DNA of 39,780 nt from a virus, in IMG/VR virus record IMGVR_UViG_3300033149_001697, positions 1 to 39,780 of that record. One strand, given 5' to 3'. Under the pieces are notes generated by a model. The model was not told the origin of the DNA. It searched no databases and saw only the letters and a list, made by a program, of their open reading frames with translations. Each line of letters opens with the position of its first letter. Positions within the stretch are counted from its first letter, which is position 1. The position numbers and the translations under genes are program-made. Positions 1,931-23,921 of the stretch are shown here, in pieces.

Positions 1931-2274
1931 AAAAGTGTGAAGTATGCGGTGCGGAGCTGGAAGTAGTAGAAACAAACGTGAACGCAGACGGGACGGGCGT
2001 GTATTACGCCTGCCCGAAGTTTATGGCCGGCGACGATGAGCATACTGCGTATCTCGAGGAACACGAAGGCGAAGACGGGTATGACCACGATGTCCGCGAA
2101 GGCACGATGGAAGATGGCGTGGGATATGATATGGATGGGAAACCGGTTTTCTATCTCGACGGAGAAGAACATACTTTTTCTACGGGACATACTCACGCCA
2201 CTGAAACCGAAGAATACGAAAATGTGAACGGGGTCATCGTGCGGTTGAGCGACGGCAAAAGAATAGATTGGTAG
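1927..2274 (+). CDS. Zinc-ribbon-like acidic protein
   Basis: A 115-residue acidic protein. An N-terminal CEVCG (C4, C7) followed by a single Cys near residue 29 (YYACPKF) suggests half or all of a zinc-ribbon fold. The middle is rich in Glu, Asp and His, and the C-terminus (VNGVIVRLSDGKRIDW) looks like a small beta element. The start is fixed by GGGGGTCA at 1917-1924, three bases before ATG. Function unknown; early, probably an intracellular binding protein or host-takeover factor. Confidence 0.65.
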   Translation: MKKCEVCGAELEVVETNVNADGTGVYYACPKFMAGDDEHTAYLEEHEGEDGYDHDVREGTMEDGVGYDMDGKPVFYLDGEEHTFSTGHTHATETEEYENVNGVIVRLSDGKRIDW

Positions 2275-2312
2275 ATGCAAAGGAACGGGAGAGATTAAGA
2301 AAGGGGGTCAAA

Positions 2313-3314
2313 ATGAAGGCAAGGACAAACTGGAAGGAAATGGTAGGCGTGCTGAAAGCGGGAGTGCCGGTTGAGGAAGTGAAAGCGGCATACGGTGTCA
2401 GGCAGTGTGATGTTAACTGGTGGAGCAAGAAGTATAAAGACGCTCCGGCGCTGTCAAGGGTTGCGGCGGCGACGATTGTTGAGCGCAAGAAAAAAGCACA
2501 GGCAGGGCAGACAGAAGTTATCGTAGTGGACAGCGGAAAGAAAACAGAAGTAAAAAAAAGCGGGAACACTTTCAAATCATTAACAAAAAGTCAGCGGAAA
2601 GTTTTTGATTTTCTCGGAAAGGTCGGCAATGAAACGGCGGTGCTGGTTAAAGGTGAAGCTGGACTGGGCAAGACGGAGCTTGTCAGGCAGTTTGCGGAAA
2701 GCAAAGGCAAGCGCATTGTAAGCTGGAATATGAACGGAACGGTTGATGTGGCTGACTTGCTGGGGCATTATATTTCACAGAACGGCTCTACAAGCTGGGT
2801 GTATGGCGTAGTTTCGCACGCTGTAAAGAACGGGCTGTGGCTGTGCTTGGATGAGATAAATGCGCCGGAAGCGAATGTGCTGTTTTCAATTCACGGGCTT
2901 CTGGATGACAGGAAAACGGTAATTCTGTCAGACCATAATGAGGTAATAGAGGCGCACCCGGATTTTAGATTTTTCGCTACCTGCAATGAAGGTTATCTGG
3001 GAACACGGGAGTTTAACAAGGCGTTTCTGTCAAGGTTTAATGCGGTAGTTAAACTTGACTATCCTGAAATGGAGGAAGAGGTAAAAATCATTTCAGACAT
3101 TCAGCCAGACGAAAGTAAAACGAAAATCATTGCGCAGATGTTGGCGGAAATGCGCAAAGCAAATTTAGCAATGCCGCTGGGTATAAGAGAGAGCAAAAGC
3201 TGGGCGTATCTTTCGCTGAAAATGGAACTGAAAGAGGCGTTCGAATTTGCTATTGAGAATAAAGCGGGAGATATTGATTTATCGGAATACAAGGGTTTGT
3301 ATTTCAAAAAATAA
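2313..3314 (+). CDS. MoxR/CobS-type AAA+ ATPase
   Basis: A 333-residue protein. An N-terminal helix-turn-helix-like segment (about 10-40, LKAGVPVEEVKAAYGV) and a Lys-rich linker precede a MoxR-type AAA+ core: Walker A GEAGLGKT at 114-121, Walker B LWLCLDEIN near 175-183, sensor-1 FFATCN near 220-225, and an SRF arginine-finger segment near 240-242. MoxR ATPases act with VWA-domain partners to remodel or insert metals into other proteins, and the VWA partner is the next gene, 10 bases downstream. Phage copies are often labelled CobS because of similarity to cobaltochelatase, but no cobalamin gene is present. The start is fixed by GGGGGTCA at 2303-2310. Confidence 0.88.
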   Translation: MKARTNWKEMVGVLKAGVPVEEVKAAYGVRQCDVNWWSKKYKDAPALSRVAAATIVERKKKAQAGQTEVIVVDSGKKTEVKKSGNTFKSLTKSQRKVFDFLGKVGNETAVLVKGEAGLGKTELVRQFAESKGKRIVSWNMNGTVDVADLLGHYISQNGSTSWVYGVVSHAVKNGLWLCLDEINAPEANVLFSIHGLLDDRKTVILSDHNEVIEAHPDFRFFATCNEGYLGTREFNKAFLSRFNAVVKLDYPEMEEEVKIISDIQPDESKTKIIAQMLAEMRKANLAMPLGIRESKSWAYLSLKMELKEAFEFAIENKAGDIDLSEYKGLYFKK

Positions 3315-3324
3315 GGGGGTCAAA

Positions 3325-5124
3325 ATGCAGTTGATGTCGTCAAATGATTATGCTACTTTACGAGGGCAGATAGAGAAAATGCTTATTCAGCATAATTTGA
3401 GAAAATGTGTTGATATGGGAAACATCGTCGGGGAAGGTGATTTGAAGGTGCTGGTTGCGCCGGTATCGACATCGTTTGCGGATTTGAAAAAACGGAAAAT
3501 AGTCATAGGCAGTGACGCTGTTGGAGTTTCACTGAAAAAAATGGTTGCTCATATACTTCACGAAGCAGGTCATATACGCTATACAAAACTGACTATTGAA
3601 AGGGCGATGAAAATCATAAAAGACACTGTGCAACCGAAAACAAATTTGAATTGGATACAGGACTGGGCAAATGTTATCGAGGACGCTCGGATAGAATACA
3701 AATTGTCAAAGCGATATCCGAACGGGCGGGCGCTTCTTAACATAAGAGATTTGTCACAAGCGGATAAGGCGTCGGAAAAAGTGCCTAAATCGGTCAGGGA
3801 TTTGGTTAAGTTTTTCAAATTGTTGACGGCTGTGCCGACAAAAGACGGGGCGGAAGTGCTGGCGGAAGTGCCGGAGGCATATAAAAAGGTATATAAGAAA
3901 AACATAAATCAATTTATTAAATCATTGGAGCACACACAGTGGAAGCACATAAAAGAGACAGCCGGCTTCTATAAAGACATTATGGACGTCTTTGATAAGC
4001 AGGTTAAAAAAGCAGAGGAACAGGCACAGAAGGAAGCGGAACAGAAAAAACAGGAAGCAGAAAAATCAGCAGAAAACAAAGAGGATGAAGAAAGCAAAGA
4101 GAATGGACAGGACACTTCTGACGGCAAAGATAAAGACAGTGGAAAGAAAAAAGAAAAAGAAGGTAATGAAAACAAAGGTGACAGGGAGCGGCAGGAAAGT
4201 CAAGAGCAGAAGGAAAGCACGGCAGAAACAGAAGAAGGCGCAAGCGAGAAAGGCGAGGAGCAAGAAGATAATGAAGACGGGAAAGGGTCAGGCGCAAGCA
4301 ATGGGAAAGGCGAAGATGACAGTAAAGATATAGAGTTTGCTCATCCTGTCGGGCGGCTGTCGTCAAAAGTAAGGGAAGTTATAAAACAGTCAGAAAAAAT
4401 TACGGATGAAGTGCTGGAAACACTTAACAGGCAGGAAGCGGAAATCAAGCGGCAGGAAACGCAGATAAAATCAGTAATTCAGCAGTTATTACAGGAATTG
4501 CAACCGGACGTGAAAAGAAACAGAGAGAGAGGAAAGATAGACACGAATAAGCTGTGGAAAGCGGGTATAAAAAAAGATGACTTCTTTAAGGCGGCTGGAA
4601 GGGAATTCCCGGAAACAGATATAATCGTAATGTCTGATATTAGCGGTTCAACACGGAATGGTAATATATTTTCGGTAATATCAAAAGCGACACAGAGCTT
4701 GATGGAAGCATTTGACAAGTTTGAAAAAATAAAATCGATGGCGCTGTTTTTCAACGGCAATAGTTATGTCGGAAAAACATTCAGACAGAAGGGCGTGAAA
4801 TTTCCTGTCGGGGCGTCGGGCGGAACTAATTTTGATAGAGTTATTTTTCACGCAGATAAAATGCTGAAAAAAGAAGGTAGAGGCAAAAAAGAATTTATGC
4901 TTATGATAACAGATGGACTGGATAATCTTTCAAAAGCAATAAAAAAACTTGCTGAACAGCATAATCTCTATGCAATAATTATTTCGTCATCTGCGACGGC
5001 ATCGACGGCATATATTAAACGTATAGCTGAAGAAAACTTCGGAAAGAACTTCTGTGTAATAGGCGGCATATCGGAACTGGGCGGCGCTATTGCAGCGGCG
5101 TTCAAAACTTTTATCAGGGGGTAA
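3325..5124 (+). CDS. CobT-like protein: HExxH metallopeptidase-like plus VWA domain
   Basis: A 599-residue protein. Residues 71-130 hold a gluzincin-like zinc site, H79-E80-A-G-H83 with NVIEDARIE near 117-124 as likely third ligand. Residues about 220-345 form a long, low-complexity Glu/Lys/Gln/Ser linker. The C-terminal VWA domain has the MIDAS motif D438-I-S-G-S, a GGTNFD loop and ITDGLDN. The layout matches phage and bacterial CobT/DUF2201-like partners of MoxR ATPases, whose natural substrate in phages is unknown. Its pairing with the ATPase just upstream implies a two-component remodelling or processing machine. The start is fixed by GGGGGTCA at 3315-3322; the longer in-frame extension back to 3247 overlaps the ATPase gene and is rejected. 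Confidence 0.85.
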   Translation: MQLMSSNDYATLRGQIEKMLIQHNLRKCVDMGNIVGEGDLKVLVAPVSTSFADLKKRKIVIGSDAVGVSLKKMVAHILHEAGHIRYTKLTIERAMKIIKDTVQPKTNLNWIQDWANVIEDARIEYKLSKRYPNGRALLNIRDLSQADKASEKVPKSVRDLVKFFKLLTAVPTKDGAEVLAEVPEAYKKVYKKNINQFIKSLEHTQWKHIKETAGFYKDIMDVFDKQVKKAEEQAQKEAEQKKQEAEKSAENKEDEESKENGQDTSDGKDKDSGKKKEKEGNENKGDRERQESQEQKESTAETEEGASEKGEEQEDNEDGKGSGASNGKGEDDSKDIEFAHPVGRLSSKVREVIKQSEKITDEVLETLNRQEAEIKRQETQIKSVIQQLLQELQPDVKRNRERGKIDTNKLWKAGIKKDDFFKAAGREFPETDIIVMSDISGSTRNGNIFSVISKATQSLMEAFDKFEKIKSMALFFNGNSYVGKTFRQKGVKFPVGASGGTNFDRVIFHADKMLKKEGRGKKEFMLMITDGLDNLSKAIKKLAEQHNLYAIIISSSATASTAYIKRIAEENFGKNFCVIGGISELGGAIAAAFKTFIRG

Positions 5125-11690: not shown

Positions 11691-11936
11691 ATGAGACGTT
11701 TTTCACAATTCAAGGCGTTCAAGATAATCAACGGCTATCGAAAAAGCACTGATGAAAAACATTGCGGAAATTGCGACTATTTTATTGTCAAGCAAATGGG
11801 CAATAGATATTTCAAATGTGCGCTTATGGGTGAAACAGCGTCGGCGGCGTCAGATATAAGAAAATTCAATGTCTGTTCACAGTGGCAGGCAAGGCGGAAT
11901 AGGCAGGCGGTGCAACGACACACAAAAAGAGCTTGA
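11691..11936 (+). CDS. Cysteine-rich small protein, last early gene
   Basis: An 81-residue protein with H-CGNC near residue 25, KC near 43, and NVCSQW near 61. The C-x2-C, C-x-x-M-G and VC-x-W spacing matches a small metal-binding phage family I know only by pattern. The start follows GAGGGGAAGTGAA. It ends where the TTGACA of the modification-operon promoter begins (11933), so the two units abut. Confidence 0.6.
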   Translation: MRRFSQFKAFKIINGYRKSTDEKHCGNCDYFIVKQMGNRYFKCALMGETASAASDIRKFNVCSQWQARRNRQAVQRHTKRA

Positions 11937-11961
11937 CATATAATTTATTTTCTGATAGCAT
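11933..11961 (+). promoter_or_regulatory. Promoter of the ParB/radical SAM operon
   Basis: TTGACA (11933-11938), a 17-base spacer and TAGCAT (11956-11961). Start of RNA is expected near 11968, so the leader before GTG 11979 is only about 11 bases and consists of the GGGAGGA ribosome-binding site. It drives the modification genes and probably terminase, as all following genes overlap. Confidence 0.7.
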
Positions 11962-11978
11962 TTAATCAGGGAGGAACA

Positions 11979-12581
11979 GTGAAAATTCAAAAAGTAAAAG
12001 TGAATGTATTAAAGGCGGCTGAATACAATCCGAGAAAATGGACGGAGGAAGAAGAAAAAAACTTAAAAGACAGTATTAAAAAATTCGGGCAGGTTGACCC
12101 GCTTGTGGTGAATAAGGCGAAGGGACGGGAGAATGTTGTTATCGGCGGACACTTCCGGCTGGCGGTGGCAAAGAAGATGGGACACAAAGAAATCTATGTG
12201 ACTTATGTGAATATCCCGGACATAAAAAAAGAGAAAGAATTGAATATCCGGCTCAATAAAAACACAGGTGAGTGGGACTTCGATTTATTAAAAAAATTCG
12301 AGGAAAGCGCATTGAAAGACATCGGCTTCGTTGACTTGGAACTGGGAGAGATTTTTTTTGACGCAAGCGCTTTCAAAAGACCTGATTTAGGCAAGGGTGA
12401 TGTTGCTGACGGCGATAGCGGCGGCAAAACAGTAGGCAACGAAAGATACTTCTATGTGGAATATTATGATGAAAAAGATAAAAAATTGTTTGAGAAATTA
12501 CAGAAGGCGCTGGGAAAAAATCTAAAAGGGCTTCACGAAATCAATAAGGACTATTTCAAAAAACTGGTGCTGGGTAAATGA
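11979..12581 (+). CDS. ParB-like domain protein 1
   Basis: A 200-residue protein. The ParB/sulfiredoxin-fold core is clear: EYNPRKW near 15-21, IKKFGQVDPLVV near 33-44, and IGGHFRLAVAKKMG near 55-68 (the usual GERR/GHRR position reads GGHFR). Next comes LNIRLNKNTGEWDFDLL, typical of phage ParB domains that are often fused to DNA methylases, here with no methylase. In phages and islands such domains act as nucleases or NTP-using enzymes, often beside PP-loop proteins (IbrB with IbrA). Start is GTG 11979 behind GGGAGGA. It overlaps the radical SAM gene by 4 bases. A chromosome-segregation role is unlikely as no ParA is present. Confidence 0.85.
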   Translation: MKIQKVKVNVLKAAEYNPRKWTEEEEKNLKDSIKKFGQVDPLVVNKAKGRENVVIGGHFRLAVAKKMGHKEIYVTYVNIPDIKKEKELNIRLNKNTGEWDFDLLKKFEESALKDIGFVDLELGEIFFDASAFKRPDLGKGDVADGDSGGKTVGNERYFYVEYYDEKDKKLFEKLQKALGKNLKGLHEINKDYFKKLVLGK

Positions 12582-13984
12582 TAAAAGATTTTCGTTTTCA
12601 GCGGCAGAATGTTTGTAGAGAATGTGCTTCTCTGGGATTGAACTGCTCAACGGGTAAAAAATGTGAAGTAATCAGGAAGCCGTTAAGACACTACGATGGA
12701 TTAAGAATAACGGCTGATGGATTTGACTGCGCATTGCCGGTGACGATAGACAGTCACAGCAGTTGCGCTTACGAATGTTTATACTGTTTCAGCGACAATA
12801 TATTGGGACACAATGCACGGAGAAAACTGGTAGGGCAGACTCCATTATCAATGCTGGAAGGCATTTTTTCAGGCGGCGGTGGGAAGCGGGGAGAACTATT
12901 TAGAAAGGCGCTGAAATATGACAGGCGCAATGCGGCGGGGTTTCCGTCACCGGTGCAATTGGGGGGGCTTTCGGACAGTTTCGACAGCATAGAAGAAAAT
13001 CAGGGCTGGGCAATTAAATTTATGGAGCTGGCGATAAAATATAATCAGCCGGTAAGGATAAGCACAAAAGGCGTTTTATTTCTCATTGACGAATATCTGA
13101 ATGTAATGAAAAAAGCGCCGCATTTATTCTGGGTGGCATTCAGTATAATCAGTGATGACGATGAACTTATGAAACGGGTGGACAGGTTTGCGCCGTCACC
13201 TTCACTGCGGCTGAAAGCAATGAAGCGGCTGACTTCTATCGGTGTGAAAACAAGTTTAAGGTTGAGACCGATAATAAAGGGAATATCAGATAGGAATTGC
13301 GCTTATAAAACGCTGATAGCAAAGTCGGCGGACGCTGGCGCTGGGGCAGTAAGTTATGAAGTGGCTTTTTACCCGGCGGCTATCGGGAAAGAAAATGTGT
13401 GGAAGTGGAAACAGTTAGATGAAATCACGGGAATAAATATGCGGCGGCAGTATGAAGCATTCGGCAAGATTATGGCGTGTTCGAGACCAAGTTATTTATG
13501 GACGGAAAATATAATGCACAGCATAAAAGAGACAGCGCATAAATACGGTATGGTAGCGGGGGTGAGTGACCCGGTATGGAAACAGTTAACGGATGTCGGG
13601 TGCTGTTGCGGGATAAAACCTGATGATAAAGTATTCGGAAACTGGGAACGTGAGAACGCAACGAATATGATGTTGCTGGCGAAGCAGGGTAAAAAGAAGA
13701 TAATACGGCTAAAAGACATAACGCCGCCGTGGGCGTATGAGGCAAAAGCGGCAGGAATAATAAATCCCGGAGCAGGACCGAAGACAATGTGGAATCAGAA
13801 ACATCTGACTTGGGCGATGGTATTAAAAAAGAACTGGAATAACAGGGCGGCGCAGAGAAGCCCGGAGAACTATTTTCAGGGAGCTTGGAAAGCAGTGGGC
13901 AAAGACGACGAAGGAAACTTGACTTATAAATATGTGGGATTAAAGCGGCATTATAAGAATGCACGCTGGGGGATTTGTGATTAG
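12578..13984 (+). CDS. Radical SAM enzyme (SplB/COG1533-like)
   Basis: A 468-residue protein. The [4Fe-4S]-AdoMet motif is C63-x3-C67-x2-C70 (CAYECLYC). Upstream lie four more cysteines, C13, C16, C23 and C29, and downstream a C342-C343-C344 run, which could hold an auxiliary cluster or zinc. The barrel strands (VRISTKGVLFL, WVAFSIISDDDELMKRVD, TSLRLRPIIKGISD) resemble the SplB/photolyase-like family, which contains spore-photoproduct lyase and many uncharacterised enzymes. It is coupled to ParB 1 upstream (ATGA) and lies 11 bases before the PP-loop gene. Context suggests radical chemistry on a nucleobase or on a protein partner; the substrate is unknown. Confidence 0.85.
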   Translation: MIKDFRFQRQNVCRECASLGLNCSTGKKCEVIRKPLRHYDGLRITADGFDCALPVTIDSHSSCAYECLYCFSDNILGHNARRKLVGQTPLSMLEGIFSGGGGKRGELFRKALKYDRRNAAGFPSPVQLGGLSDSFDSIEENQGWAIKFMELAIKYNQPVRISTKGVLFLIDEYLNVMKKAPHLFWVAFSIISDDDELMKRVDRFAPSPSLRLKAMKRLTSIGVKTSLRLRPIIKGISDRNCAYKTLIAKSADAGAGAVSYEVAFYPAAIGKENVWKWKQLDEITGINMRRQYEAFGKIMACSRPSYLWTENIMHSIKETAHKYGMVAGVSDPVWKQLTDVGCCCGIKPDDKVFGNWERENATNMMLLAKQGKKKIIRLKDITPPWAYEAKAAGIINPGAGPKTMWNQKHLTWAMVLKKNWNNRAAQRSPENYFQGAWKAVGKDDEGNLTYKYVGLKRHYKNARWGICD

Positions 13985-13995
13985 AGGGGAGTTAA

Positions 13996-14736
13996 ATGGC
14001 GCAGTTGCGTGAACTTCTGGTAAAATCGTTAAAACGGCACAAAATCAAAGACGGTATAGAATTAGAATTCAGCGGCGGGTGTGACAGCACAAGCATTTTT
14101 CTGTGCTTGAAAAAAGATTTGAAAATAAAATTCAGGTGTCACATTTATTATCTGCGGGAGCGAGGAAATATGGATTTGTATAACAGCAGAGTGTTATGCA
14201 GACATTACGGCGTCAAGCTGGTGGAATATAAGCTGACAGAGGCACAGGTGCTCAAAAACATTGTGACGCTGAAAGCGGATGGCTACAAGGGCAAGGTGCT
14301 TCTGCAATGTCTGGCGGGACATTTGCCGGTGGCAAGAGCGATGAAAAACAGGACGGTGCTTAATGCTTCATTCGCAGACGCTTTATACGGCGTTTACAAA
14401 TCGATATATATGACTGGCGGATACAAGAACAAAAAACAGTTTGATATTATGCGCAAGAAGGCATTATACAATGAGGACGCTGATGGCACGGTGTCTTTAA
14501 GCAAATTGTTTGCGAAGACGGGAAACAAAGTGGTATATCCTTACTGGGACAAAAAAATCATAGAGTATTTTTTGAGGTTCGATTATCATAAGCTTAACAG
14601 TCCGAGGAAGAAAAAATTTTTTTATGAGGATTTTGAAATGGATATTCCGAAGGCGGCAAAACCGAAAAGAATTTCACAGCAGATAGCAAGCGGTGTCAAG
14701 GAATTTCTGGCGGGGCAGAACATAAGTTATAGATGA
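13996..14736 (+). CDS. PP-loop ATPase (asparagine-synthase/ATP-pyrophosphatase fold)
   Basis: A 246-residue protein. The ATP pyrophosphate loop is S26-G-G-C-D-S31 in IELEFSGGCDSTSIF. The remaining sequence (NASFADALYGVYKS, VVYPYWDKKIIEYFLRF, PRKKKFFYED) resembles the C-terminal synthetase domain of asparagine-synthase-like enzymes. It lacks the N-terminal glutaminase, so it is not a full asparagine synthetase. PP-loop enzymes adenylate a carbonyl or phosphate for attack by an amine or sulfur, as needed in base modification. It overlaps ParB 2 by 4 bases. GGGGAG precedes ATG 13996. Confidence 0.75.
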   Translation: MAQLRELLVKSLKRHKIKDGIELEFSGGCDSTSIFLCLKKDLKIKFRCHIYYLRERGNMDLYNSRVLCRHYGVKLVEYKLTEAQVLKNIVTLKADGYKGKVLLQCLAGHLPVARAMKNRTVLNASFADALYGVYKSIYMTGGYKNKKQFDIMRKKALYNEDADGTVSLSKLFAKTGNKVVYPYWDKKIIEYFLRFDYHKLNSPRKKKFFYEDFEMDIPKAAKPKRISQQIASGVKEFLAGQNISYR

Positions 14737-15335
14737 AGTGGAGAACTGAACAGCGCAAAATAAGTGAGCTGAAACTACTGAAAGAAAATCCGAGAATATT
14801 GACAGAAGCGCAACGGGCGGAGCTGGAGAAGTCATTAAAAAAATTCAATCTGGCTGAAATCCCAGTAATTGACAGAGACAACGTGGTGCTGGCTGGAAAT
14901 CAGAGAGTAGCAGTATTAAAAGCACTGGGACGGAATAAAGAGACAATAGATGTCAGAATTGCTGACAGAAAGCTCACAAAAGCTGAAAAACGGGAATATA
15001 CCCTGCGTTCTAATAGAAACACTGGCGAGTGGGATTTTGAGAGTTTAGCGGCATTCGGCAAAGATTTACTGGAAGGCGTTGGTTTCACTGAAAAAGAGCT
15101 TGCGAAAATATACAAAATCGGGACTTCGGAAGGCAAGGGAGAGTTGGAGTTTACGGAGGAACTTTTAGAGGAGCGCAATTTCGTCGTCTTCATATTTGAC
15201 AATTCTATTGACTGGCTGAATTTCAAAAGCAATTTTGAGTTGAAAAGAAAAAAGATGGTTCACCATAAAACGAAAATTAAAACGGGTGTGGGAAGGGTAA
15301 TCGACGGCAAGATATTACTGGCAAAGCTGAAATGA
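14733..15335 (+). CDS. ParB-like domain protein 2
   Basis: A 200-residue protein, exactly the length of ParB 1. Motifs: KENPRIL near 17-23, LKKFNLAEIPVI near 35-46, LAGNQRVAVLKALG near 53-66, then YTLRSNRNTGEWDFESL. The GNQR and GGHFR variants at the catalytic position differ between the two copies, so they may have distinct substrates or one may be structural. The C-terminal part (FVVFIFDNSIDWLNF) differs from that of ParB 1 although both read as small alpha/beta tails. It overlaps the genes on both sides by 4 bases, placing it in the same coupled operon. Confidence 0.85.
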   Translation: MKWRTEQRKISELKLLKENPRILTEAQRAELEKSLKKFNLAEIPVIDRDNVVLAGNQRVAVLKALGRNKETIDVRIADRKLTKAEKREYTLRSNRNTGEWDFESLAAFGKDLLEGVGFTEKELAKIYKIGTSEGKGELEFTEELLEERNFVVFIFDNSIDWLNFKSNFELKRKKMVHHKTKIKTGVGRVIDGKILLAKLK

Positions 15336-16108
15336 AAATATCGGTAAATATCCCTACTTATAAAAGAGCGGGGGCGCTGGATACTTTTAGGACATTCAAG
15401 GCGGCTACATACTGGGTTCACGCAAGCGAAGTGGCGGAATACAAGGAAAAAAATCAGGGAATAAAAATCAGGACATTGCCTGACAAGTTAAAAAAAAACG
15501 TGGCGGCGGTGCGGAATTTCATATTAAGAAGTGAGCTGAAAAATAACGATGTCACGGTAATGATGGATGATGATATAAATCATTTCGGATACTGGGAAAA
15601 ACAGAAGCGCATAAAAATAAAAACAGAAGCGCAAATGCTGGGGCTTATAGAGAAATATAGCAGGGTGGCAAAAGAGTGGGGTGTAAAACTCTGGGGCGTC
15701 AATATCAATAGTGATAAGCAGTCATATAGCGAATTTACACCGTTTTCAACGCTGGTTTATATTTCGGCTTCGTTTTCGTGTTTTCTGAAAGGCAACGAAT
15801 GTTTCTATGATGAGCGGTTCAGTTTGAAAGAGGATTATGATATGGCGGTTCAGCAATTAAATAAATACAGGCAGGTGCTTCGTGTTAATAAAATCTATTA
15901 TGAAAAGAAGAGTGTGGAACAGATAGGCGGTTGCTCTACATACAGAAGCGTTGACAGGGAAATGGAGCAGATAAAACTATTGCAAAAAAAATGGGGGACG
16001 GCAATTATTCGGGTTGACAGAAATGATGAGCGCAGTCATAATTTACGGCGGCGTAAAAAAATCACGGATATAAATCCGGTAATAAAAGTGCCGATAAAAG
16101 GGATATGA
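15332..16108 (+). CDS. TET-associated-type (TAGT/GREB1-like) glycosyltransferase
   Basis: A 258-residue GT-A-fold protein. It starts ISVNIPTYKRAGALDTF, has a HASEVAEY element near 30-37, the helix VAAVRNFIL near 57-65, and the catalytic metal-binding VMMDDDINHF with D79-D80-D81. Further on is SCFLKGNECFYDERFSLKEDYD, the usual acceptor-side ED-containing region. This pattern matches the TAGT/GREB1 glycosyltransferases described next to TET/JBP oxygenases and in phage base-modification clusters. Its target here would be a modified base, but no TET/JBP or hydroxymethylase gene is found. It overlaps both neighbours by 4 bases and leads straight into terminase. Confidence 0.78.
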   Translation: MKISVNIPTYKRAGALDTFRTFKAATYWVHASEVAEYKEKNQGIKIRTLPDKLKKNVAAVRNFILRSELKNNDVTVMMDDDINHFGYWEKQKRIKIKTEAQMLGLIEKYSRVAKEWGVKLWGVNINSDKQSYSEFTPFSTLVYISASFSCFLKGNECFYDERFSLKEDYDMAVQQLNKYRQVLRVNKIYYEKKSVEQIGGCSTYRSVDREMEQIKLLQKKWGTAIIRVDRNDERSHNLRRRKKITDINPVIKVPIKGI

Positions 16109-16578
16109 AAAAAAAGAGCAAACGGGGCAGTATAAAAAAAGAACGGAAAAAACAGGAACGCACAAAGGATAAACAGAAATTGTTTTTGGAAGCATACGAA
16201 AGAACGGCGTGCAATATATCGCAGGCGTGTAAGTCGGTAAATATCGGTCGGACGACATTTTACAGCTGGGTGGAAAAATATCCGGCATTCAAGGCGGCAG
16301 TAAATGAAATAAATGAAAGTGTTATTGAGATAGTAGAGTCGCAGTTAAAGAAAAATATAATGAACGGCAAGGAAGCGTCGTTATTCTTTTTTCTGGTAAA
16401 CAGAAAGCCGGAACGGTGGAGAAGCATAACGAAAGTGCAGATGGAGCACAGCGGACATATTGATACAGCGCCTAATCCGGCAAGTGTGTTAAACAAAGTG
16501 GATAAAAAATCAGGGCGCAAAATCGGCGAAATTATAGTGGAAGCGTTTAGTGAAAGCGAAAGCACTGATAAAAAATAG
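16105..16578 (+). CDS. terS: Terminase small subunit
   Basis: A 157-residue protein. A basic N-terminus is followed by a helix-turn-helix (CNISQACKSVNIGRTTFYSWVEKYPAFKAAV, about 32-64), then a helical segment with KNIMNGKEASLFFFLVNRKPERW, typical of terminase small subunits that use phBC6A51-like HTH domains. It recognises the packaging site and feeds DNA to the large subunit. The gene begins in the stop of the glycosyltransferase gene and overlaps terL by 29 bases. Confidence 0.85.
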   Translation: MKKKSKRGSIKKERKKQERTKDKQKLFLEAYERTACNISQACKSVNIGRTTFYSWVEKYPAFKAAVNEINESVIEIVESQLKKNIMNGKEASLFFFLVNRKPERWRSITKVQMEHSGHIDTAPNPASVLNKVDKKSGRKIGEIIVEAFSESESTDKK

Positions 16579-18028
16579 AGAGCAGGCGGACTTTTGTTTC
16601 TGGGCTTCAAAACATATAATCACAGAAAAAAAAACAAAACTTGAATTTGGTCGGCACGCATTCCTACGGGATTTGTATAACTGCTGGAACAATGAAATCA
16701 TAATAAAAAAATCAGCGCAGGTCGGTGCAACGACATACGGGCTTTTACGGGCGCTGTGGCTGGGGCAATACAATAAGGCGGCGGTAATTTTCACAATGCC
16801 GAAAAAGTCGGATGTGAGTGATTTTTCGCAGGCACGAATAAATCCTATCGTAAAGTATTCAGGGCTGGCGGCAAATGTTGATAACGTCGGGCTGAAACAG
16901 ATAGGCGACAGCTTCTTATACTTTCGTGGGACTTGGGGAGAGACGGAAGCGATAAGTGTGCCGGCGGATATGCTGGTGCACGATGAGATAGACAGAAGCA
17001 GACCGGATGTGGTGGAGATGTATGAGGAGCGGCTGTCGGCAAGTGATTTGAAATGGAAAATAGTAATGTCAACGCCGACAATTCCGAATTATGGGATAAG
17101 CGCTTTTTATGAGCAGTCGGATAAGAGAGAATGGATTGTAAAATGTCCGGCAGGACACAGGCAGATTGTCAGGGAAAGTAATATAAAAGACGGGCGTTTT
17201 ATCTGCTTAAAATGCGGGCGTGAACTGGATAGAACAAACGGGAAGTGGGAGAAACAAAATCCGGGAGCAGGGGCGGCTGGCTATCACATAACACAGTTAA
17301 TAGCGCCGTGGATAAGTGCGGGGGAAATCATATCAAAGCGGGACAAATATAAATTCAAGCGGGATTATTTCAATTTCGTGTTAGGTGAAGATTATGCGGG
17401 CGGCGTCGGGCTGGTTAAACGTTCAGAGCTTATTTCGTGCGTTAAAAGCACAAGCGAATATCAGGAGAAGGCGTTGATAGGCGTTGACTGGGGAGATACA
17501 AGCTGGGCAGTAGTCAGGCGGGGGCACAGCATAATTCACTTGGAGAAAATAGAAGGCGATACACGGACACACTGGGTTCAGGTGGCAGATTTAATGGATA
17601 AATTCAAGGCGGATACGGTTGCGGACTTCGGCTACGGAGACACAAAGAATAAATCGTTAATAGAGAAGTTTCCCGGGCGGGTGTGGATGTGTGTTTATTC
17701 GGACGGGGTGATATTTCCGAAATTCAATGAAGCAAAGCGGATTGTCAATATCGACAGAACACGGAGCATTGAAGAAACATTGCAGGAAATAAAGGACGGA
17801 GTGCTGGCGATAGAGCCGCAGGACTTGGTGGAGACGTTCATAGAGCATTTTCTTAACCTTACGGAAACGAAAGAGGAAGACAAACACGGGAAAATACGGA
17901 CAGTAATAGGGCGGAGTGGCGGAGACCATTTCGTTCACGCAGATAATTACAGCAGGTTGCTATTGGAAGTCAAGCAGGCAGGTGAAAGCGAAGCGCTTGT
18001 CGGGGACTGGGACTTTATGCCGGAGTGA
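16550..18028 (+). CDS. terL: Terminase large subunit (GpA-like)
   Basis: A 492-residue packaging ATPase/nuclease. Walker A-like KSAQVGATT at 54-62 and Walker B MLVHDEID at 141-148 follow the lambda GpA/Mu-type pattern, with RGTWGETEAISVPAD before it. A zinc-binding insert (CPAGH ... CLKCG, about 200-225) and the nuclease start IGVDWGDTSWAV are present. The GTG start lies inside terS, coupled. GpA-type motors are often of the cos-cutting kind, but that cannot be decided here. The late promoter region follows its stop. Confidence 0.92.
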   Translation: MKAKALIKNREQADFCFWASKHIITEKKTKLEFGRHAFLRDLYNCWNNEIIIKKSAQVGATTYGLLRALWLGQYNKAAVIFTMPKKSDVSDFSQARINPIVKYSGLAANVDNVGLKQIGDSFLYFRGTWGETEAISVPADMLVHDEIDRSRPDVVEMYEERLSASDLKWKIVMSTPTIPNYGISAFYEQSDKREWIVKCPAGHRQIVRESNIKDGRFICLKCGRELDRTNGKWEKQNPGAGAAGYHITQLIAPWISAGEIISKRDKYKFKRDYFNFVLGEDYAGGVGLVKRSELISCVKSTSEYQEKALIGVDWGDTSWAVVRRGHSIIHLEKIEGDTRTHWVQVADLMDKFKADTVADFGYGDTKNKSLIEKFPGRVWMCVYSDGVIFPKFNEAKRIVNIDRTRSIEETLQEIKDGVLAIEPQDLVETFIEHFLNLTETKEEDKHGKIRTVIGRSGGDHFVHADNYSRLLLEVKQAGESEALVGDWDFMPE

Positions 18029-22571: not shown

Positions 22572-23921
22572 ATGAGCGTGATTAAGATGTCTGACATACA
22601 GGTTGCGGCAAACTGGGCGGCATTGAAAATTGACGCAGAGAACGGCGGTAATGCAGACAGAGAACACATAACACACGGAAGCGCAAGACCTTTTTACGAA
22701 ATTATAAATGACGGAGCTTGGCAGGGGCGGCGATGTTTTATCATAGGCGGCGGTTCGAGCTTGCGGGATTTTGACTGGTCTCTGCTTGATGGCGAGCTGA
22801 CAATCGGTATAAACAAAGCACTGGAAAAAATAGAGCCGACAATTATGCTGTCGATGGACAGTAGATTTTATGACTGGCTCATAAATGGTGAACTAGGTGA
22901 GGAACTAAAACGGAAATTCGAGAATTACAAGGGATATAAGGTCTGGCTGAATACGATAAATCATAACTTCGGAGAGGATGTTTATTTGATAGACAGCGCC
23001 GGAGAGAAGGCGCTGACAAAATCACTTCACGACGGGTTGGGGCACGGAAGCAATAGCGGATATGTAGCGCTGAATTTGGCAATGGTGCTGGGAGCAAACC
23101 CTATTTATCTGCTGGGGTTTGATATGAAGGGGGACGGGCAGGGAAAACAGAGCTGGTGGCACGGGGGATATCCGGTAAATCAGGGTGAGAAAGTTTTTAA
23201 TAGAATGACTGAATGCTTTGAAGCGGCGGCTGATGAAATAGCGGCACGGGGGTTTCGTGTCATAAATATGAATGAAGACAGCGGGCTGAAATGTTTTGAG
23301 TTTTCGGACACTATACTGAAAAACGAAATGCCGTTGATAATCTCATATTACACGAAAAAATCTATTTATGAATATCAGGTGCGGTTTTTGAAGGAAAGTT
23401 TGGACAGGTTATTTTTGAGTTATGATATTCAGGAAATAAAAGACAGAGGAAGCTGGGCGGCGAATACATATTACAAAGCGGAATTTATAGCTGAAATGCT
23501 GGAAAAACACAGGGGCAGGGATTTACTCTGGGTGGACGCTGACGCTGTGATGTGGAAGACGCCGGAAATGTTTAGAAATTATGACGGGGACTTGGGTGTA
23601 TTTTATTACAGGGGCAGTTTATCAAACGGCACGATTTATTTGAAAAATAACGAAGCGGTCAGGGGGATTGTCGGGGACTGGGTTAAAGAGAATAATAAGA
23701 ACGAAAAAAAAACGGTCTGGGAGCAGTTTAATTTTCAGAGAGTCGTGGAGCGGAACGCAGGGAATATAATGGTGAAGATACTGCCGAAAAATTACTGCTA
23801 CATTGAAGGGCTTATGCAGGGCGTTCACGGGGCGGTGATTGAGCATTTTCAGGCAAGCAGAATTTTACGGGGAAGATATTTGAAGCCGGAGGTAAAAGAT
23901 GGCATTAGACACGACGAATAG
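22572..23921 (+). CDS. MptE-like domain fused to GT-A glycosyltransferase
   Basis: A 449-residue protein. The first 250 residues (CFIIGGGSSLRDFDWSLLDG with GGGSS at 59-63, TIGINKAL, MLSMDSRFYDW, GHGSNSGYVALNLAMVLGA, YLLGFDMKG) match the MptE/DUF115-like Rossmann-type domain found in motility-accessory and phage proteins. From about 255 a second domain begins (MPLIISYYTKKSIYEYQVRF), with a metal-binding D322-A-D324 in LLWVDADAVMW and a nucleotide-sugar transferase layout. It sits between capsid and head-tail connector genes, so it may glycosylate a virion or cell-surface protein, or work with the modification operon. Its ribosome-binding site is weak. It overlaps the next gene by 23 bases. Confidence 0.7.
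   Translation: MSVIKMSDIQVAANWAALKIDAENGGNADREHITHGSARPFYEIINDGAWQGRRCFIIGGGSSLRDFDWSLLDGELTIGINKALEKIEPTIMLSMDSRFYDWLINGELGEELKRKFENYKGYKVWLNTINHNFGEDVYLIDSAGEKALTKSLHDGLGHGSNSGYVALNLAMVLGANPIYLLGFDMKGDGQGKQSWWHGGYPVNQGEKVFNRMTECFEAAADEIAARGFRVINMNEDSGLKCFEFSDTILKNEMPLIISYYTKKSIYEYQVRFLKESLDRLFLSYDIQEIKDRGSWAANTYYKAEFIAEMLEKHRGRDLLWVDADAVMWKTPEMFRNYDGDLGVFYYRGSLSNGTIYLKNNEAVRGIVGDWVKENNKNEKKTVWEQFNFQRVVERNAGNIMVKILPKNYCYIEGLMQGVHGAVIEHFQASRILRGRYLKPEVKDGIRHDE

Follow-up and report, generated by a model that had tools for sequence, protein, structure and literature searches.

A probable ParB-guided DNA-base hypermodification island built from two separable ParB-enzyme modules upstream of a viral terminase

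The locus described here raises the question of whether five genes leading into the terminase genes of a virus act on its DNA, and whether they do so as a single pathway. They lie in the window analysed in this study, which is the entire IMG/VR virus record IMGVR_UViG_3300033149_001697 (39,780 bases), and encode a ParB-like protein (ParB1), a radical S-adenosylmethionine enzyme (rSAM), a PP-loop ligase, a second ParB-like protein (ParB2), and a TET-associated glycosyltransferase (TAGT). An earlier note on this DNA had read them as one five-gene DNA-hypermodification pathway. The DNA-modification context held up, whereas the one tight pathway gave way to two separable modules, ParB1-rSAM and ParB2-TAGT, both of which are also seen in other phages, with the PP-loop gene between them as an optional addition, as far as gene neighbourhoods tell. 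The locus is best explained as a ParB-guided DNA-base hypermodification island directly upstream of the terminase in a virus of bacteria, a reading considered probable, and by its gene content the base-decoration route seems to do without the oxygen-dependent step of related known viruses.

Related loci, denoted by L numbers, were fetched by scanning viral contigs with TAGT and rSAM, followed by profile searches, and the locus counts include near-identical contigs. Of 81 viral loci with TAGT, 71 had a ParB gene no more than 60 bases upstream of it and 76 had one at a distance of up to 1.5 kb, while TAGT started at the contig edge in the other five, so that ParB occurred upstream in 76 of 76 testable loci. 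The same pairing was found in eight of nine bacterial contigs (Treponema, Bacteroides, Phascolarctobacterium, Victivallaceae, and others), with the ninth at a contig edge, and in Streptococcus phage Javan291. Of 35 loci with close relatives of the window rSAM, 33 had ParB, or only its C-terminal domain (CTD, the last ~75 residues), near the rSAM gene, 28 of them directly upstream, and two loci were at a contig edge. A short gene coding only for the rSAM-type CTD replaced ParB before rSAM in L015, L019, and L021. Terminase genes normally came after the ParB-TAGT pair in the fetched viral loci, and a terminase lay at most 4 kb from rSAM in 25 of the 35 close loci. A lack of conserved linkage had been named in the earlier note as evidence against its proposal; the neighbourhood search found ParB, rSAM, and TAGT linked beside the terminase elsewhere as well.

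Family assignments of the window genes were made with Pfam, PHROGs, and NCBIfam. ParB1 matched ParB_N (PF02195) at 1.5e-9 with 38.2 bits against a cut-off of 26.3, and within the GxxR nucleotide motif of this domain G55 was invariant and R58 near-invariant. ParB2 fell below the single-sequence ParB_N cut-off; its family profile found solved ParBs (ParB/Noc structures) at 2e-13, and its predicted model showed a ParB fold with a predicted local distance difference test score (pLDDT) of 87. TAGT matched PF20691 with 54.7 bits against a curated cut-off of 27.5, and its DDD 79-81 and KED 166-168 were invariant among five aligned relatives. The sole match of TAGT in a sequence search against the PDB, TetR, was rejected as spurious.

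Variants of the ParB-TAGT arrangement were also observed. Tandem TAGT genes stood behind one ParB in L083, L098, L099, L101, and L104, where the first copy was more diverged. A P-loop kinase-like open reading frame (ORF) without a Pfam match at 0.001 lay between ParB and TAGT in L036 (5481-6032), and a class I or FkbM methyltransferase gene occupied this place in L041 (588-2822) and L092 (2649-4659). In L077 (1533-4610), a second ParB and an IbrA-like PP-loop (DUF3440/PAPS_reduct) directly preceded ParB-TAGT, forming another ParB-enzyme module.

The two modules were distinguished by the CTDs of their ParBs. With the window held out, 76 CTDs linked to TAGT and 19 linked to rSAM were used to build one model per type, and the CTD of ParB1 scored 48.5 bits with the rSAM-linked versus 2.0 bits with the TAGT-linked model, while that of ParB2 scored 81.1 bits with the TAGT-linked versus 1.1 bits with the rSAM-linked model. 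Leave-one-out tests assigned 19 of 19 rSAM-linked rows correctly, the most divergent of which scored low (1.8-20 bits), and 16 of 16 sampled TAGT-linked rows, and eight held-out ParBs of bacterial contigs were all of the TAGT type. Both modules were found in the opposite order in L156 (ParB-TAGT-ParB-rSAM-terminase), whose ParBs obeyed the same partner code with scores of 42.8 versus -0.5 and 53.7 versus -1.5. No reliable homology emerged when the profiles of the two CTD types were compared. Over 47 non-redundant loci, TAGT distances correlated with CTD distances at r=0.60, with the ParB core of the same protein at r=0.19, and with TerL at 0.25; ParB core against TerL gave r=0.47, a soft figure as TerL distances are near saturation. 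Since TAGT co-varies with the CTD and only weakly with the ParB core, these distances suggest that the CTD and its enzyme travel together as a cassette and are added to a ParB core already in place.

The ParBs are thus seen as partner-specific adaptors, which is quite likely, and not as the suppliers of nucleoside triphosphates that had been suggested earlier. They might instead be partition proteins or nucleases that stand beside accessory genes by chance or through late-operon clustering, as the ParB fold and the frequent phage annotations “ParB-like nuclease” or “partition protein” would allow. The pairing in every testable TAGT locus, the held-out prediction of partners, the CTD-only genes before rSAM, and a co-variation of TAGT that is far stronger with the CTD than with ParB core or TerL make this highly improbable. 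ParA was not matched among the window neighbours scanned, and both the CTDs and the pairing speak against a role in partition.

The window rSAM matched Radical_SAM (PF04055) at 6e-7, above the cut-off, and C63, C67, and C70 of its CxxxCxxC motif were invariant in 18 of 18 relatives. Among the same relatives, cysteines 51, 301, and 342-344 were invariant and the N-terminal cysteines 13, 16, 23, and 29 near-invariant; by their conservation, these cysteines outside the triad are compatible with auxiliary iron-sulfur (Fe-S) clusters, which are probable. The predicted model (pLDDT 89.9, predicted TM-score 0.91) had spore photoproduct lyase (SPL) as its nearest solved fold (E 8.9e-7 to 1e-5), and the structure search recovered rSAM folds. 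The protein did not fall into the SPL sequence family, with NCBIfam matches to PA0069/Rv2578c far below cut-off, and it had no match among PDB sequences at E 0.1. Across 84,980 genome species, the rSAM profile A1 gave no confirmed match. PADLOC returned a very weak viperin match to rSAM (E 0.005) and a weak QueC match, and only the match to a methyltransferase-type ParB was meaningful. Position 124 is serine in the window and cysteine in 16 of 18 relatives (PC.VQ.GG motif), and on this alignment it could be the counterpart of the hydrogen-donor cysteine of SPL.

Further genes were seen around rSAM in single loci. A second rSAM lay upstream of the main one in L164 (7037-7996) and L178 (4324-5235), with a SPASM domain confirmed in L178, where a GT-B-like gene stood before it. 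Amidoligase-like and class II glutaminase-like genes were located 1-3.5 kb downstream of rSAM in L013 (10377-12886), and in L005 (5219-6741), a human gut phage, a short rSAM directly followed a C5-cytosine methyltransferase-like gene.

The PP-loop protein matched Asn_synthase (PF00733) at 1.4e-8 with 35.3 bits against a cut-off of 21, carried SGGxDS, and matched AsnB in the PDB (1ct9) at 9e-5. It consists of the synthetase domain only, and the N-terminal glutaminase (GATase) domain that is present in the full-length AsnB of L015 was not found in it. A homologue with 38% identity lies between ParB and rSAM in L029, and AsnB-type genes accompany ParB (or its CTD) and rSAM in L029, L015, and L148. 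An AsnB-only scan of viral contigs found no relatives, while a scan with an alignment recovered L029 as well as relatives of the cyanophage type. Nearly all fetched loci of this type have the AsnB-like PP-loop gene overlapping a DNA C5-methyltransferase gene. The PP-loop had earlier been likened to IbrA of an IbrA/IbrB pair. Its family, PF00733 and not the PAPS-reductase type, makes it an asparagine-synthetase type instead and rules out an IbrA or Dnd identity. PF01507 and PF11922, both present in L077, had no match in the window PP-loop, and PADLOC matched no Dnd system in the window.

Genes of DNA modification surround the modules in related loci. Annotated phage DNA methyltransferases carry a ParB N-domain of the window type as their N-terminal part, and in Javan269 the ParB-methyltransferase gene belongs to a methyltransferase cluster just upstream of the terminase. 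Among the loci with distant rSAM relatives, L173 has the order ParB-ParB-P-loop kinase-ADDT (amino acid:DNA transferase; PF18724, 8.3e-18)-GNAT-rSAM-TerL, and the layout of L182 looks the same and includes an ADDT match. In L203, only one ParB was recognised, and behind it come ADDT, kinase (PF18751), GNAT, and rSAM. Of 47 distant rSAM loci, 18 had TAGT as a near neighbour of rSAM, with the two genes overlapping in some (L165, L195), and L041 carries an rSAM-like fragment upstream of ParB and TAGT. TAGT occurred in 11 and ADDT in 7 of 41 rSAM records and none held both (P ~0.09 by hand); a mutual exclusion of the two is suggestive only. Among the window ORFs scanned, there was no match to ADDT (PF18724) or to the hydroxymethyl-dU kinase (PF18751), and no methyltransferase.

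Because of the domain shared by ParBs and methyltransferases, the rSAM and AsnB neighbours, and the SPL-like fold, the system is taken to act on DNA, and it very likely modifies it. A protein or glycan, for example of the capsid, or the nucleotide pool could be the substrate instead: TAGT is related to general GT2 enzymes (PMC13216743), an MptE/sialyltransferase-like gene stands in the head module, and rSAM belongs to a broad superfamily and has the very weak viperin match. With the ParB N-domain common to DNA methyltransferases, the SPL-like fold, the ADDT, kinase, and C5-methyltransferase neighbourhoods, and the known function of TAGT on T2/T6 DNA on the other side, a target other than DNA is quite improbable.

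In the proposed mechanism, each ParB would hold phage DNA by its N-domain and recruit one enzyme by its partner-specific CTD, the latter step being supported by the partner code and co-variation. The rSAM recruited by ParB1 would activate a pyrimidine by radical chemistry derived from S-adenosylmethionine, with C5 or the C5-methyl as the likeliest site, as its SPL-like fold and neighbour genes suggest. TAGT, recruited by ParB2, would by its family add a sugar to an oxygen-bearing base, and the PP-loop, having no glutaminase domain, may adenylate a carboxyl or carbonyl and form an amide with ammonia or another amine. Progeny DNA would presumably be shielded from host nucleases before packaging. 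Any particular chemical route read from these sequences is doubtful. The place beside the terminase that the earlier note had stressed is conserved, while its timing of modification to packaging is suggested by gene position alone.

To our knowledge, a pyrimidine hydroxymethylase or TET/JBP carries out the first step in the established routes to pyrimidines that bear sugars or amines. A search for TET/JBP (PF12851) over 44 records, the window among them, gave no match, and it detected both phages used as positive controls, Tonitrus (PMC11955845) and JAMaL. The thymidylate-synthase-type enzyme (PF00303) was not found in 30 ParB-TAGT records or in the window, with positive controls detected, and occurred in 1 of 38 rSAM records. 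The lack of TET/JBP, hydroxymethylase, and methyltransferase that the earlier note had seen in the five-gene set was borne out for the window at the sensitivity of these searches, for the methyltransferase within the ORFs scanned. Both control phages carry ParB-TET-ADDT-kinase in the same place beside the terminase, and by this placement rSAM holds the slot that TET/JBP takes in phages of aerobic actinobacteria.

This slot, the missing TET/JBP and hydroxymethylase, and the extra cysteines make it a live hypothesis, and not a result, that rSAM replaces TET/JBP in function without needing oxygen and takes a hydrogen from the C5-methyl of thymine or 5-methylcytosine in DNA. Auxiliary Fe-S clusters would accept electrons, a hydroxymethyl or equivalent handle would result, and TAGT, kinase and ADDT, or an AsnB-type ligase would decorate it, with the ParB CTDs plugging the enzymes onto DNA. 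Such a replacement is on balance rather unlikely; the distantly related rSAM of M6-like phages works beside a hydroxymethylase, and the ParB-TAGT records discussed below also count against it.

The rSAM may also be a late tailoring enzyme, an isomerase or lyase that follows the attachment of an amine or sugar, and not the first activator of the base. The rSAM of M6-like phages is said to have such a late role. SN1, which is M6-like, has a hydroxymethylase, two aGPT-PPlases, a kinase, an rSAM, and a PLP enzyme (PMC9476957), its rSAM is a distant homologue of that of L173 (20% identity, 5e-6), and rSAM occurs together with ADDT and kinase in L173, L182, and L203. Most close ParB-rSAM loci, however, have no recognised conjugating enzyme nearby, and no other supplier of hydroxymethyl was seen, since PF00303 occurred in a single rSAM record and TET/JBP in none searched. 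A late role is accordingly judged unlikely.

Several points weigh against the hypermodification island as preferred here. The TM-scores of the rSAM model against SPL reach only 0.51-0.56 depending on the target, and the PP-loop is rare, occurring as a stand-alone protein only in the window and L029 and as full-length AsnB in L015 and L148. Clustering with the terminase could reflect late-gene architecture, and the locus records may be fragments. No rSAM of the window family was found in 31 ParB-TAGT records by a search without a positive control, and TAGT is for this reason not generally dependent on an rSAM of the window type. The last result fits two independent modifications, one made by ParB1-rSAM(-AsnB) and another by ParB2-TAGT in a phage that collected both modules, as does the fact that each module is common alone and keeps its own ParB. 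This is a serious possibility, if short of an even chance; L156 joins the modules again in reverse order, rSAM and TAGT stand close together and in some cases overlap in the distant loci given above, and the rSAM-like fragment of L041 lies upstream of both ParB and TAGT, all of which speaks against separate modifications.

The genes of the island and the adjoining terminase genes are given in Table 1. The five co-oriented genes described before, three of whose four junctions are 4-base overlaps, were confirmed at 11979-16108 and are translationally coupled. ATGA overlaps of 4 bases occur at ParB1/rSAM, PP-loop/ParB2, ParB2/TAGT, and TAGT/TerS, the last of which carries the operon straight into the terminase as had been stated, and a gap of 11 bases separates rSAM and PP-loop. 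The CxxxCxxC, SGGCDS, and MMDDDI motifs were likewise all recovered in the predicted proteins. The single TTGACA promoter proposed for the operon has a sequence counterpart at 11933 (TTGACA-17-TAGCAT, 10 of 12 matches), but it is not established, because promoter-like sites were no commoner in the region than in shuffles (9 versus 11.0 +/- 3.6).

Table 1. Position and assignment of the island and terminase genes in the window.
Gene	Position	Strand	Features
ParB1	11979..12581	+	GTG start, GGGAGG ribosome site; ParB N-domain and rSAM-type C-terminal docking domain
Radical SAM enzyme (rSAM), 468 aa	12578..13984	+	PF04055, CxxxCxxC
Stand-alone asparagine-synthetase-type PP-loop ligase, 246 aa	13996..14736	+	PF00733, SGGCDS; no glutaminase domain
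ParB2	14733..15335	+	ParB N-domain and TAGT-type C-terminal docking domain
TAGT (TET-associated glycosyltransferase), GT-A type	15332..16108	+	PF20691, MMDDDI
TerS (terminase small subunit)	16105..16578	+	PHROG 309 and 4044; marks the conserved position
TerL (terminase large subunit, gpA type)	16550..18028	+	PHROG 675 3.9e-106, PF05876 1.8e-14

Elsewhere in the window, GC skew was positive along the whole length (1-39780; 0.17-0.38, mostly ~0.3), and the annotated genes lie on one strand. At 2268-5124, a MoxR/CobS-like AAA+ ATPase is followed by an overlapping gene for a 625-aa protein resembling a VWA/CobT partner. A 449-aa head-module protein adjoining the capsid gene (22572-23921) showed MptE-like similarity (PF01973, E 8e-4) and similarity to the PHROG “alpha-2,3-sialyltransferase” (2.6e-20); capsid glycosylation is possible.

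If the island reading is true, phage DNA could be hypermodified without a dioxygenase that uses molecular oxygen or a pool of modified nucleotides, which would suit anaerobic hosts. It would explain why ParB-like proteins so often accompany DNA-modifying enzymes of phages, namely as a shared part for loading onto DNA whose interchangeable sockets are specific to the partner. A role would also be assigned to the large set of solitary TAGT genes, which PMC13216743 counts in 288 of 753 phage genomes.

Among known systems, the ParB-TET/JBP-ADDT-kinase cassettes of actinophages (Rhodococcus phage Tonitrus and Mycobacterium phage JAMaL) are likewise ParB-headed overlapping operons near the terminase, and their ParB N-domains match the profiles built here at 3e-16 to 5e-12. 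Their kinase and ADDT also occur in distant rSAM relatives, though not among the window matches, and they differ in having TET/JBP in the rSAM slot, no TAGT, and another ParB CTD. In the hypermodification of M6/SN1 and ViI (reportedly Lee et al. 2018, 2022), an rSAM, a P-loop kinase, and an amino-acid:DNA transferase are said to act on thymine-derived bases. These systems start from a phage pyrimidine hydroxymethylase, which is present in SN1 and was not found in the window, and the SN1 cluster is without ParB or TAGT and has an rSAM that is only a distant relative.

Spore photoproduct lyase is a DNA-acting rSAM that works on thymine in DNA. The window rSAM differs from it in its 468 aa, extra N- and C-terminal cysteine motifs, lack of an SPL family match, and TM-score of ~0.5. 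The ParB-DNA methyltransferase fusions of temperate siphophages such as Streptococcus phage Javan269 have a homologous ParB N-domain, but there the methyltransferase is fused to ParB, whereas the window has ParBs with a docking CTD and separate enzymes. The IbrA/IbrB and DndB/DndC pairs likewise place a ParB-superfamily protein beside a PP-loop enzyme, and the PP-loops of IbrA and DndC belong to another class than the asparagine-synthetase type.

The TAGT of T6 (beta-glucosyl-HMC alpha-glucosyltransferase, T2/T6) works with hydroxymethylated, alpha-glucosylated cytosine, as given in the accessible part of PMC13216743, where a ParB-TAGT pairing is not described. Like the window TAGT, that of T2/T6 exceeds the PF20691 cut-off and has GT-A motifs; the window TAGT is unlike it in being paired with ParB and in having no alpha- or beta-glucosyltransferase in view. 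The literature searched held no description of a ParB-rSAM or ParB-TAGT pairing, and Iyer et al. 2013 and Lee et al. 2018/2022 may anticipate parts. Phage DNA hypermodification is a known kind of system, within which the separable ParB-rSAM and ParB-TAGT modules, the partner-specific CTDs, the AsnB-type partner, and an rSAM in the TET position are apparently new to the literature searched.

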